NCBI GenBank assembly: GCA_026985735.1
Contig: JALSPW010000193.1
Coordinates: forward strand, 1 to 34,681
Direction: 5' to 3'
DNA from: Saprospiraceae bacterium
GTDB taxonomy: Bacteria > Bacteroidota > Bacteroidia > Chitinophagales > Saprospiraceae
DNA: 34,681 bases
In this document: in pieces, positions 14,065 through 29,578 of the stretch
Numbering within the stretch: the stretch's first letter is position 1
Layout: each line of letters starts with the position of its first letter
The notes under the pieces: model-generated
Databases searched by the model: none
What the model was told of the DNA's origin: nothing
What the model saw: only the letters and a program-made list of their open reading frames with translations
Translations under genes and position numbers: made by a program

Positions 14065-16233
14065 TTATTGCTCAATCATACCGGTTATTTTTTTCCACAT
14101 ATCAAAAGCAGCTTTATGTTTAGCTACCTTTTTGGTTTTTCCATATCCGGTAGTTTCTATTAGTATGTCATTCCATAATATTGCAGAACAAGTACATTGG
14201 AATCTATCATAATTGTGTATAGCAGAACGCACAAATGAATATTCCGGTTTCTTAACACTTTTTTTTTCTAATAAAGTATTTAGCATACCTATATAGTTTG
14301 TTGTTCGCGATTCTGTTTTAGGTTTTTTCTTATGTTGCTTTTTTTCAACCGGAAGATATGATATTTTTGATAATAGATCGGCTGCTGCCAATTGTTTTGC
14401 CGTTTTCTTATTTGCTTCTTTTATTTCTTTAGATAAATAAACTATATTGTTGATAGTGATTTTAGCTATGGCATAAAATACAGGTTGATGTTCCATGCCT
14501 GATTTATTAAAAATAAATTCAGGGTTTTCCCATCTGTTTTCCTGACATAATTCATATAAAATGCCAATATGGTTTATTTCCCGACTTGCTATTTTATTCT
14601 TATCTTTTTCAATATTTGTTTTTATGAAATTTTCATCTTTATTATGTATTTTGGTTGAAAGATTTATTATTGATTCATTTATTTGAATTTCGTGTAAATT
14701 TATTTTGATATTTGTTATTAAGGATATAAGAATTAAATTTGCATATAACCTTGATGCTTTTTTATTTTTGAAAAAAAGGCATTTTTTGTCAATGGAGTTT
14801 GACGAAATGGATTGACCGTTTAAGTTTATAGTAGCATTTGATTGAAAAACCGGTATATGTTTGATATTTGTTTTTATTGTAGTATATTCGGGTTTATTCC
14901 AACTAAATTTTTGATTTGCCAAAGTAAATATACTTATAGTATGATGAGGATGTTTTATCAGATATCTGAATATTTTATTTTTAAATGTTTGCCATTTATC
15001 TGGGTTATTTGAATTTAGCAAGATAATAAATATCTCTTTGACACTTATTTTATTTTTATTCAGACGGGATTCAAGTAATAGCTGTAAATTTTTAGGGAGT
15101 ATGTTTTCTTCAATGGCAGTTTTTATCAATCGGTAATAATTTTTATCTTTTAAATTTAAAAAGTTCTCGTCATTCAATCGTTCCAAATAGAAATTGTGTG
15201 CTTGTTGTTTAAAAAAGGATTCTTTTTTATTTTTTATTGACAAAGCGATATTGTTGATATGATTTCCTATTTCTTCTAGATTACTAAATGAATAAGGAAG
15301 ATTTTTATTTGATATATAGTAACTAAGTTGTTGCACATTTATAAAATCTGCATATCTTCTAATGGGCGAGGTGAAATGTAAATAAGCTGGCAAATTTAAT
15401 GAAAAATGACCTTCTACAACTGGAGAATATTGTGCTTTGTTAAAGATCAAAGTAAACTTTCTAACCAAAGTTTCAATTCTGTTTAAGTCTCTGATGTTAA
15501 TGACGTTATTCACATCTTCGATAAGTTTTTTTCTATTGGGAGCAATAACTTTTGAAGTATGATTTCGATATAGACCATAAATATTTTTATTTGCAAAGAA
15601 TTTTGCTATTATACTGTTAACAAGAATCATAAATTCCTGTACAATGATATGCGAATTGAATCTTTCGTCAGGAGATAGCATTCTGATAATTCCTTCTTCC
15701 GATGTAGTCAGTTTATGTCTTAAGCTATATATTGTAATGGCCCCTTCTATCCTTCTTTTTTGAAATAAATTTTGGGCTATTTCATGGCATTTAAGTATCA
15801 TGTTATTATATTGATGATTCGGAGATTTCATGATTTGATCAGCTTGTTCATAACTGAGTTTTGCTATATTTCTGATGATTGTTTTTCTGATAACTGGAGT
15901 TTTGGTCTCTCCCATAGAATTTATAGGTATGGATATAGTGATAGCAGGTCTGTCTTTATTGTACAATAAACTTAATGAGCCTTCCGAATATCTGCGAGGA
16001 AGCATCGGTTTGTTCCGATTTTTAAAGTATTCGGTAAAACATCGTTTTTTTGCTATGATATCAATTTTTGAATCCGGTATAACTAAAGCACTAACATCAG
16101 CAATTGATATATGCAAAATATAAGCTTCATTATCTTTTTCTAACCAGAATGCATCATCGAGATCAACTGAATTGGAACTGTCAATCGTAATTCCGATTAC
16201 TTTTTCTCTTCCTTTTGTGATAATTTTATTCAT
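14065..16233 (-). CDS. RNB-domain (RNase II/R-type) exoribonuclease fused to C-terminal dsRNA-binding domains; lacks CSD and S1 domains
   Basis: RNB: GITIDSSNSVDLDDAFWLE keeps the D-x5-D-x-D-D spacing of the RNase II catalytic acids; EFMILVNSIIAKFFANKNIYGLYRNH; GHFSLNLPAYLHFTSPIRRYADFINVQQL. dsRBD-like: NHIGILYELCQENRWENPEF...KEANKKTAKQLAAADLLSKI (~14361-14574) and NYIGMLNTLLEKKSVKKPEYSF...GKTKKVAKHKAAFDMWKKI (~14083-14304); a third, more degenerate, FSWNKPEYTTI...FFKNKKASRLYANLILISLI (~14715-14906). Confidence 0.9.
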   Translation of the reverse strand: MNKIITKGREKVIGITIDSSNSVDLDDAFWLEKDNEAYILHISIADVSALVIPDSKIDIIAKKRCFTEYFKNRNKPMLPRRYSEGSLSLLYNKDRPAITISIPINSMGETKTPVIRKTIIRNIAKLSYEQADQIMKSPNHQYNNMILKCHEIAQNLFQKRRIEGAITIYSLRHKLTTSEEGIIRMLSPDERFNSHIIVQEFMILVNSIIAKFFANKNIYGLYRNHTSKVIAPNRKKLIEDVNNVINIRDLNRIETLVRKFTLIFNKAQYSPVVEGHFSLNLPAYLHFTSPIRRYADFINVQQLSYYISNKNLPYSFSNLEEIGNHINNIALSIKNKKESFFKQQAHNFYLERLNDENFLNLKDKNYYRLIKTAIEENILPKNLQLLLESRLNKNKISVKEIFIILLNSNNPDKWQTFKNKIFRYLIKHPHHTISIFTLANQKFSWNKPEYTTIKTNIKHIPVFQSNATINLNGQSISSNSIDKKCLFFKNKKASRLYANLILISLITNIKINLHEIQINESIINLSTKIHNKDENFIKTNIEKDKNKIASREINHIGILYELCQENRWENPEFIFNKSGMEHQPVFYAIAKITINNIVYLSKEIKEANKKTAKQLAAADLLSKISYLPVEKKQHKKKPKTESRTTNYIGMLNTLLEKKSVKKPEYSFVRSAIHNYDRFQCTCSAILWNDILIETTGYGKTKKVAKHKAAFDMWKKITGMIEQ

Positions 16234-16270
16234 GGATTACTATTTTCAGTCTATAATAAAAACTTGTTTC

Positions 16271-26482: not shown

Positions 26483-29400
26483 CTATATGGTTTCGTTTTT
26501 ATCTTGTCTGTAATATGCTATCGTAGCCAATACAACTAATATAAATACGGATATATAAACCCATAAAGGTATGGGCACAGCATCTCCTTTGGCATAAGAA
26601 TGTAATCCGGAGAGATAAAAATTAACACCAAAATATGTCATAAGAATGGAAAATGAACCTATGACTGAAGCCAAATTAAAAATATAAACCGAACGCATAC
26701 CCTTGATCATTCTCATGTGAAGTATAAAAGCGTATATCATAATTGTAATCAATGACCAAGTTTCTTTTGCGTCCCATCCCCAGTATCTACCCCAGGATTC
26801 ATTTGCCCATACTCCCCCCAGAAAGGTGCCGATACTTAACAAAAACAGACCGATAGTCAAAGATAATTCATTTACCGCAGTTAATTCTTTTATTGTGTAT
26901 TTGATATTGGTATTTTCTTCGTTATTTCCGGATATGGATATCATTATTAGATTAATGAGGCCGAGCATTGCACCCAAGAATAAAAATCCGTAACTAGCCG
27001 TAATAACGGATACATGAATCATAAGCCAATAGGATTTCAATACGGGGACCAGGTTTGTAATTTGGGGATCCATCCAATTCATTGCCGCCACTATCATTAT
27101 CCAAGCAGCTAAAACTGCTGTAGCCGCAAGCGTAATAGGCGATTTCTTTGCTAATAAAACTCCTGCTAAGACTATTGCCCATGCGATATAAACCATAGAT
27201 TCGTATCCATTGCTCCAAGGTGCATGTCCTGCAATATACCATCTCAATCCCAAACCGAAAGTATGGAATATAAATCCTATAAATATTAAAAATATACCGG
27301 TTTTTACAGACCATTTTAAATTGATACCCGGTTTGAAAACTTTTATCAGCAATAAAATCAATAGTATAAAACCAACAGTAAAATACCAGCCTATCAGTTT
27401 GTTGAAAATAAGAGTTTTGTTGTAGAATAATTCCGCTTTAATTTTATTATCAGACGGCATATAACCGGCAGCAACGGATTTTTGATAATTTTTTAATCCC
27501 TCCAATGCAAGATTTGCATTGCTCCAATCATTTTTATTTACTCCTTCGACAACACTTTGCAAGTACCACGGAAGGAAATTTTTGACCAATACATCAGCTT
27601 CTCCAAAATCCATTTTTGATGCTTGCTCGGGTGTGTACCATTTTCTGGATGGATCATCTTTTTTAGGATAGATTTTGAGGAAACTTCCGGAGAATATCAT
27701 ATAAATAATATTGATTCTCTCATCAACTTTTATTACCGCTTTATCAAATTTTGATCTTTCTTTTTCAGGTTTATGTAATGCTTCTTCAATATAATTTGCT
27801 AAAATATATCCTGTTTTATCATCAAAAAAATCAATATAAGCAGCATATTTTCCTGTTCCTATATAATCTTCCAATTCAGGATGGCCTATTTTAACTATAG
27901 GAATATTTTGCCACTGGTGCGGGAATGTCATTATTCCAAGCATTATCTGATCCGGATTTTGCCCTGCGAATTCTTTTTTCTGAGTTATTTTTCTCACCAA
28001 TCTTGAAGACATGGTGTTTAAAGGCATAATTCTACCTCCTCTCTCCTGAATTAATATTTCACCGAATTTTTTTGCCTGTGTCTTGTTGATTATTTTGAAT
28101 GAATCGGGTAAGTTGACCTGAGCCGACGAGACAATAGTAGAAATCAATATAAAAGTTATTATTGAAGTATTATGAAGTCTTTTATCCCTGAATTTATTTA
28201 TCAGTCGATTCAATTTTTTAACTCTTGCTTTTTTTGTAAAAAAGGTTAAAATCATACCCATTGTAAGTAAAAAATATCCAAGATAAGTAATACCGGTTCC
28301 CCATGCATCATGATTGACCGAAAGGATACTTCCCGATTCGTCAGGATCATAAGACGATTGAAAAAATCTGTAACCTTTATAATCCAATACATGATTCATG
28401 TATATCCTGTAATCCATTTTAATATTGTCTTTGGGGTCTATTAATGTTATTTCGGAAGCATACGAAGAGGGGCTGTGTGAACCCGGATATCTCTCCAATT
28501 GGAAATCCCTTAGTTTTATTTTGAAAGGCAGCTTTTTGCGTATGGAGCCATAAGATATTGCAATATCGGTTTCTCCGAATTTCACATGTTGCAATTGTCC
28601 CTCCATTCCTTTATTACCCCATGCATAAACGGTTTTAATAGTATTGCCATCCGATACGTTAAATTCCAAAGCGTTAAAAGAAGCAGCTTCTATTTTTGAA
28701 GATTTTGATACAGGGATTAATTTGGCTTTGGGTATATATTCTTTTAGCACAATGTTTTCATTTTGTAACATATATAATGCTCCTGTGCCAAAATTATATT
28801 CTGTATTGGCTTTCATTGTATCAATTGATTGATCACTCATATACATTACGGTAAAAGGAAAAGCGGTTTGGATTTTTAAACTGTCATTTTTTGTATAAAT
28901 TTTCACATTGGTGTTTTCATCGGTATTGAAACCTATCATGACCGTATTATAAACTAATGTTTCTTTTTCTTTGAGAAAACCTCCCACTCTTCCTCCGGCA
29001 GTACCATGTATCAAATATAATACAGGTACTCCTTCTTTTTCATCTTTTACCAATGATTCATTTGCATTCGGGATAAATTTATTTAATGCGATGTTATATT
29101 CTTTATTTTTAAATTTTATTTTTTTATTAAAAGTATTTTTTCCAAGACTACCGAAAAGAACTTTGTTTTCAGAATTAATACTGTCAATTCCATCAGTGGC
29201 AATTATTTTTATATGAGTGTCATCTGTCAAAATATAATCGGAAGTTTCACCTTCTTTGATATGCATCAGCCCTTCGTAACTGATATATCTGGTGATAGCA
29301 GCTCCTGCAATAATAATAAGCATTGCCAGATGAAAAATAAAAATTCCGTATTTCACCTTCCGGTACAATCTGAATTTAAAAATATTAATAATCAACGAAA

Positions 29401-29578
29401 CGGCAAATAAAAGCCACAACAATTCGAACCACCATGATTTGTAAATGATTTTTTGAACAGTCATTGTCCCATAATCATTTTCAATAAAGGTGGCAACTGC
29501 CATTGCTAATGCTAAAGACAAAAACAAGGTGCCTGCAAATGAAATAGATAAGAAAAAATTGTATATTTTTTTTAACAT
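26483..29578 (-). CDS. Fused cytochrome c biogenesis protein (ResB/Ccs1 + CcsA, CcsBA-type)
   Basis: N-term ResB-like TM helices (SISFAGTLFLSLALAMAVATFIENDYGT), C-term CcsA-type WWD motif WGRYWGWDAKETWSLIT. Confidence 0.95.
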   Translation of the reverse strand: MLKKIYNFFLSISFAGTLFLSLALAMAVATFIENDYGTMTVQKIIYKSWWFELLWLLFAVSLIINIFKFRLYRKVKYGIFIFHLAMLIIIAGAAITRYISYEGLMHIKEGETSDYILTDDTHIKIIATDGIDSINSENKVLFGSLGKNTFNKKIKFKNKEYNIALNKFIPNANESLVKDEKEGVPVLYLIHGTAGGRVGGFLKEKETLVYNTVMIGFNTDENTNVKIYTKNDSLKIQTAFPFTVMYMSDQSIDTMKANTEYNFGTGALYMLQNENIVLKEYIPKAKLIPVSKSSKIEAASFNALEFNVSDGNTIKTVYAWGNKGMEGQLQHVKFGETDIAISYGSIRKKLPFKIKLRDFQLERYPGSHSPSSYASEITLIDPKDNIKMDYRIYMNHVLDYKGYRFFQSSYDPDESGSILSVNHDAWGTGITYLGYFLLTMGMILTFFTKKARVKKLNRLINKFRDKRLHNTSIITFILISTIVSSAQVNLPDSFKIINKTQAKKFGEILIQERGGRIMPLNTMSSRLVRKITQKKEFAGQNPDQIMLGIMTFPHQWQNIPIVKIGHPELEDYIGTGKYAAYIDFFDDKTGYILANYIEEALHKPEKERSKFDKAVIKVDERINIIYMIFSGSFLKIYPKKDDPSRKWYTPEQASKMDFGEADVLVKNFLPWYLQSVVEGVNKNDWSNANLALEGLKNYQKSVAAGYMPSDNKIKAELFYNKTLIFNKLIGWYFTVGFILLILLLIKVFKPGINLKWSVKTGIFLIFIGFIFHTFGLGLRWYIAGHAPWSNGYESMVYIAWAIVLAGVLLAKKSPITLAATAVLAAWIMIVAAMNWMDPQITNLVPVLKSYWLMIHVSVITASYGFLFLGAMLGLINLIMISISGNNEENTNIKYTIKELTAVNELSLTIGLFLLSIGTFLGGVWANESWGRYWGWDAKETWSLITIMIYAFILHMRMIKGMRSVYIFNLASVIGSFSILMTYFGVNFYLSGLHSYAKGDAVPIPLWVYISVFILVVLATIAYYRQDKNETI

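Follow-up and report, generated by a model that had tools for sequence, protein, structure and literature searches.

A gene of a Saprospiraceae bacterium encodes a 722-residue protein in which a conserved RNB catalytic domain is followed by a helical linker and three dsRNA-binding domains (dsRBDs), and which belongs to a coherent, horizontally spread family that apparently is undescribed so far. The gene lies on contig JALSPW010000193.1 of assembly GCA_026985735.1, of which we analysed positions 1 to 34,681 of the forward strand; this whole stretch of 34,681 nucleotides is called the window. We consider it likely, albeit by no means certain, that the protein is an active, Mg-dependent 3'-5' exoribonuclease, where the helical linker and the three dsRBDs would replace the OB-fold clamp and hold duplex or hairpin RNA, the duplex being opened during decay. 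Descriptions of RNB exonucleases almost always include clamps made of cold-shock domains (CSDs) and S1, and the mechanism by which these enzymes deal with duplex RNA is an open question, in which the CSD movement and the trihelix wedge of Dis3L2 figure. Because the present family naturally lacks the clamps, has a shorter wedge and carries added dsRBDs, it constitutes a direct test of a duplex-fed RNB tunnel.

Catalytic domain and dsRBD tail

The gene and its features are located in the window as follows:
14065-16233, minus strand: gene of the putative RNB + three-dsRBD exoribonuclease (722-residue ORF with ATG start; Pfam RNB and dsrm; AF2 pLDDT 87.6)
16237-16239, minus strand: in-frame stop TAA, two codons 5' of the ATG (reverse complement TAA TCC ATG)
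15310-16191, minus strand: RNB catalytic domain, residues 15-308 (Pfam PF00773, 2.4e-69; Foldseek to RNase R 8cdv/5xgu, about 1e-20)
16153-16182, minus strand: catalytic acidic cluster D18, D24, D26, D27 (34/34 family members; RNase II numbering via the 2id0 alignment)
15433-15567, minus strand: RNH motif (residues 223-225) and shortened trihelix-linker region (223-267), diagnostic of the family
15346-15378, minus strand: HFTSPIRRYAD motif with R292, the RNase II R500 equivalent (34/34 members)
14953-15147, minus strand: four-helix linker, residues 363-427 (AF2 pLDDT about 90; conserved family-wide; no Pfam family)
14713-14943, minus strand: divergent dsRBD1, residues 431-507 (AF2 alpha-beta-beta-beta-alpha; hhalign to dsRBD2; below Pfam detection)
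14353-14574, minus strand: dsRBD2, residues 554-627 (Pfam dsrm; GMEHQPVF loop and KKTAK helix)
14083-14301, minus strand: dsRBD3, residues 645-717 (Pfam dsrm, second stretch)

Since an in-frame TAA precedes the ATG by two codons, the protein has no N-terminal extension and conceals no CSDs, so that the preliminary description was right to let it begin, at a true start and with exact coordinates, at the RNB domain. Profile searches for RNB, dsrm, CSD and S1, proposed there as a check, matched the first two: PF00773 scores 234.6 bits against a gathering threshold of 29.3, and dsrm (PF00035) scores 68.8 bits against a cut-off of 23 in two stretches of the C-terminal half (6.1e-19). Neither CSD nor S1 has a Pfam match anywhere in the 722 residues.

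When the protein is aligned with RNase II of E. coli (2id0), residues D18, D24, D26, D27, Y69 and R292 correspond to D201, D207, D209, D210, Y253 and R500. The four catalytic aspartates and the equivalents of Y253 and R500 are invariant in all 34 members compared, which come from six phyla. The acidic cluster and the HFTSPIRRY-type motif had earlier been taken to indicate a catalytically competent enzyme, which this conservation supports at the level of sequence; mutation of the catalytic residues in all homologues, the contrary outcome raised beforehand, is not what we find, as the residues are intact in 34/34. Other positions set the family apart from RNase R. The trihelix-linker region spans 30-45 residues in the family versus 59-64 in RNase R, with no exception in the sample, position 224 is N in all members versus V or I in RNase R of the same sample, and the equivalent of RNase II E390 is Q or A in every member, whereas RNase R has E. 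Furthermore, the Y313 equivalent is variable in 9 of the 34 members.

For the C-terminal half, Pfam gives no match over 14689-15201 of the window, which holds part of the linker and dsRBD1. The AF2 model computed from a 30-sequence alignment (mean pLDDT 87.6) contains three alpha-beta-beta-beta-alpha dsRBDs, and its pTM of 0.64 means that the single domains are reliable while their mutual arrangement and their placement relative to the tunnel are uncertain. An earlier AF2 model from a 4-sequence alignment (pLDDT 51) served for the middle dsRBD only. Residues 431-507 fold as helix-strand-strand-strand-helix in both AlphaFold runs, and the dsRBD1 profile of 30 members aligns with the dsRBD2 profile in hhalign at 98.8% (E 7e-16). 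The best Foldseek matches of the model are RNase R and Dis3L2, followed, for the dsRBDs, by TARBP2 and Loquacious (Loqs). The comparison of a structure model with RNase II/R, suggested beforehand, hence gives both a match to RNase R at about 1e-20 and C-terminal segments that fold as dsRBDs. The tail had been read as two dsRBDs without S1; the dsRBD array and the missing S1 stand according to Pfam, but the count has to be raised to three according to AF2 and hhalign.

The helix-2 lysines K491 and K609 are conserved in at least 90% of the family, and a GxxHxPxF-type loop is found in most non-cyanobacterial dsRBD2s. The RNA-contact features of the family's dsRBDs are conserved, and these motifs suggest duplex binding. 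dsRBD3 of the window protein has no GPxH loop; the whole domain is missing from the two intact orthologues of the same genus and present in the Thiotrichaceae relatives. That dsRBD1 falls under Pfam detection might point to false dsRBD calls or to a spurious gene fusion. We regard the chance of such an artefact as negligible, since Pfam, AF2, Foldseek and hhalign agree independently and the same domain order recurs in 30 homologues taken from different assemblies and from complete genomes.

Family unity, selection and distribution

Members were collected by pattern-seeded or sampled scans, so their counts are not exhaustive; in the genome-contig scan a single-protein query gave no match, and an alignment-based query retrieved members. 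Among the aligned members, RNB is detected in 30/30 and Pfam dsrm in 29/30. Family HMMs assign two dsRBDs to 17 of these 30 proteins, three to 12 and four to one, counts that describe rather than prove the architecture because the HMMs were made from the same alignment. That 30 diverged homologues share one architecture nevertheless shows that the domain combination is not due to chance. An RNB-domain tree, from which RNase II and 2r7d-type enzymes were left out, separates 34 family members from 20 RNase R by a 100/100 branch. Judged from the sequences, the family may be filed as a new subfamily within the RNB superfamily that lies outside RNase R and RNase II. Within the tree, the window protein groups with Thiotrichaceae at 100/99; this grouping of Saprospiraceae with Thiotrichaceae implies transfer between phyla.

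A close pair of members (L214/L215) is under strong purifying selection, with a dN/dS of 0.067 overall, 0.040 in RNB, 0.076 in linker plus dsRBD1, 0 in dsRBD2 and 0.056 in dsRBD3. The low values in every segment indicate that nuclease and tail are both maintained. The RNB value also speaks against a pseudo-enzyme, that is, an RNA-binding regulator whose nuclease function is lost, as in Ssd1 of yeast or Zam of cyanobacteria, as does the invariance of the four aspartates and of the R500 equivalent in 34 members from six phyla; the active site of Zam, in contrast, is degenerate (PMC9145284). Although Q or A at the E390 equivalent and the shortened trihelix-linker in all members would fit this reading, we discarded it on catalytic-residue conservation and consider it highly improbable.

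The family is scattered over at least six phyla. It occurs in Pseudomonadota (Thiotrichaceae, Pseudomonas, Vibrio, Pararhizobium, Acetobacter), Actinomycetota (Glycomyces, Rhodococcus, Mycobacterium, Streptomyces, Gordonia), Cyanobacteriota, Chloroflexota (Ktedonosporobacter) and Patescibacteria (Taylorbacteria, WWE3). Public annotation calls its members just 'RNB domain-containing ribonuclease' or 'ribonuclease R'. A survey limited to Bacteroidota, as first envisaged, would have been too narrow: in the host's own family there is a match in only 6 of 398 genomes (2 of 114 genera), and one full-length member was found among 397 genomes of other Bacteroidota, whereas the family spans these several phyla and is often found on plasmids. 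Cyanobacterial genomes match in 9 of 196 cases, the seed included and some of them weakly. Cyanobacterial ORFs of 740-777 residues (in G524, G578, G588, G614 and G620) match the C-terminal profile, composed of linker and dsRBDs, at about 1e-20 to 1e-23, and are perhaps divergent family members.

Among five genomes of the host genus, three have an intact copy, one (G002) a deleted copy and one none. A genus-restricted origin, which was first suggested, is ruled out by the members found in other phyla. Compared with L005, the deleted orthologue (L006:1405-2199, on G002:C117) lacks two internal stretches of 666 and 438 bp, both multiples of three, and shows 88-89% nucleotide identity to it elsewhere; most of RNB and dsRBD1 is gone, with one frame still open. 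This copy may be a genuine shorter form or a gene in decay, or it may stem from faulty assembly.

Genetic context and proposed function

Canonical RNase R is present in most hosts searched and in all five genomes of the host genus, that of the window included, which settles the earlier question of an rnr gene elsewhere in the genome. The host's other dsrm match, a 259-residue frame on a different contig, is probably RNase III. In Ktedonosporobacter rubrisoli (complete chromosome) and in one Glycomyces genome, the family protein is the sole RNB protein detected. This would suit a general exonuclease for structured-RNA decay or maturation, whose dsRBDs anchor on hairpins of rRNA, tRNA or mRNA and which works alongside RNase R or in its place, with no preference for true dsRNA, and so would the syntenic, widespread occurrence of the gene in Glycomyces and the position of the window copy among housekeeping genes. 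We find such a general role somewhat unlikely, given the RNase R of most hosts, the sporadic distribution with 1/397 and 9/196 genomes in other Bacteroidota and cyanobacteria, respectively, and the frequent location on plasmids. Beside the housekeeping genes that share its contig, we noted at 26483-29578 of the window (minus strand) a single ORF of 1031 residues in which a ResB-like domain is joined to one of the CcmC/CcsA type (Cytochrom_C_asm), both of cytochrome c assembly.

Many copies are carried by conjugative or mobilizable megaplasmids, with 4-5 plasmid copies in single Acaryochloris strains, and a few IMG/VR contigs, which are candidate phages, carry the family gene as well. One of the latter copies lies near genes for thymidylate synthase, homing endonuclease and endonuclease VII, as in large phages. 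The gene could accordingly serve the mobile elements themselves: plasmids and large phages would use it to get rid of duplexes between sense and antisense strands (those of replication or copy-control RNAs, or of antisense or CRISPR RNA from the host), or else to shield the host from RNA phages or competing elements. We deem this service unlikely, for PADLOC, applied to five family members and to five of the neighbours, gave no defence match, no neighbour recurs except parA beside the gene on some cyanobacterial plasmids, and many copies are chromosomal.

A conserved gene neighbourhood was rejected, there being no recurrent neighbour outside Glycomyces and near-identical Pseudomonas plasmids. 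On the Pseudomonas plasmids, the copies have a gene of the phosphoadenosine phosphosulfate (PAPS) reductase family about 60 bp upstream (L034:7121-7921 and L041:5121-5921). A type I-E CRISPR-Cas operon directly adjoins the copy on an Acetobacter pasteurianus plasmid (L040:8640-13106), and dndC, related to the PAPS reductase-family gene, is found about 2 kb upstream of a Streptomyces plasmid copy (L038:2503-4050). With no PADLOC match, an association with defence was dismissed, and we judged the CRISPR and dndC neighbours, both single cases, to be incidental.

We return to the proposed exoribonuclease, which would be fed with duplex RNA. The dsRBDs would bind A-form duplex, be it dsRNA, an antisense duplex or a long hairpin, and keep it over the RNB tunnel, whose entrance would be permanently open; the 3' strand would be threaded in and hydrolysed, as the catalytic residues suggest, and the duplex would be unwound as degradation advances. 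The lone RNB domain of RNase R does unwind structured RNA (PMC12320835). In Dis3L2, two CSDs swing by about 70 A before the duplex meets the strand-separating RNB trihelix-linker, and deletion of the whole trihelix-linker stops degradation of dsRNA but not of ssRNA, single-helix deletions causing no block (PMC10023572). As the family has no CSDs, the large movement required by Dis3L2 would be unnecessary. Against threading of a duplex stands the trihelix-linker, the wedge of Dis3L2, which is about 20 residues shorter in every member, although loss of one helix alone left Dis3L2 without the defect; the Q or A at the E390 equivalent, the variation at Y313, the dsRBD3 without GPxH loop and the lack of a conserved partner gene also count against the model. 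Since the gene is accessory and mobile and coexists with the RNase R of its host, it would most likely clear duplex or structured RNA, such as antisense RNA or foreign transcripts, that RNase R handles poorly. More tentatively, and with distinctly less confidence than in the exonuclease activity, we envisage a dedicated prokaryotic family of dsRNA-degrading exoribonucleases that megaplasmids and large phages have spread horizontally. Its dsRBDs would hand duplexes, still intact, to an RNB nuclease that works processively, and against antisense or foreign duplex RNA it would be the exonucleolytic counterpart of RNase III.

Relation to known RNB proteins and RNase III

The preliminary description knew of no characterised bacterial enzyme that combines RNB with dsRBDs, and we found no description either: a literature search, mostly of open-access rather than subscription papers, yielded no RNB + dsrm pairing by Pfam accession and no such bacterial architecture. 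In a recent RNase R review the term dsRBD is absent (PMC12320835), and a study on the phylogeny of RNB proteins in cyanobacteria distinguishes Rnb and Zam clades with dsRNA unmentioned in its text (PMC9145284). With RNase R and RNase II (TIGR02063 and TIGR02062; E. coli, B. subtilis, M. genitalium) the family shares the RNB domain, the four catalytic aspartates, the Y253 and R500 equivalents and the TSPIRR motif, but it is devoid of CSD1/CSD2, S1 and HTH and has dsRBDs added. Accordingly, the window protein scores 192.4 bits with TIGR02063 (RNase R) against a cut-off of 597.85, the match being confined to residues 13-335, and the NCBIfam RNase II model matches only the RNB part, far under its cut-off. 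Deinococcus radiodurans 2r7d and Haloferax RNase R have the RNB core in common with the family and consist mostly of the RNB domain (PMC12320835); 2r7d, with 469 residues, aligns with the RNB part only, and a dsRBD array is described for neither.

Zam and Ssd1 are divergent RNB-family proteins whose catalytic site is lost, Zam retaining CSD and S1. Giant-virus RRP44-like proteins (BFVD A0A3G5A893, A0A3G5A6P2, A0A5B8IP63) share the RNB fold, yet at low whole-chain TM-score. Those of Homavirus, Harvfovirus and ChoanoV1 align in Foldseek over 616-720 columns of the RNB + dsRBD model, which implies that some of them may also have dsRBDs.

Eukaryotic Dis3L2 also belongs to the RNB family and breaks down duplex RNA with no helicase to help it. 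It relies, however, on CSDs that can move, on S1 and on a trihelix wedge of full length and has no dsRBD, whereas the family has dsRBDs and a shortened trihelix-linker and lacks CSDs and S1. Bacterial RNase III, finally, cleaves dsRNA and has a dsRBD at its C-terminus, but its catalytic fold is unrelated and its mode of attack endonucleolytic, so that only the dsRBD is common to both. If dsRNA indeed is the substrate of the family, bacteria would possess an exonucleolytic route for duplex RNA beside RNase III.
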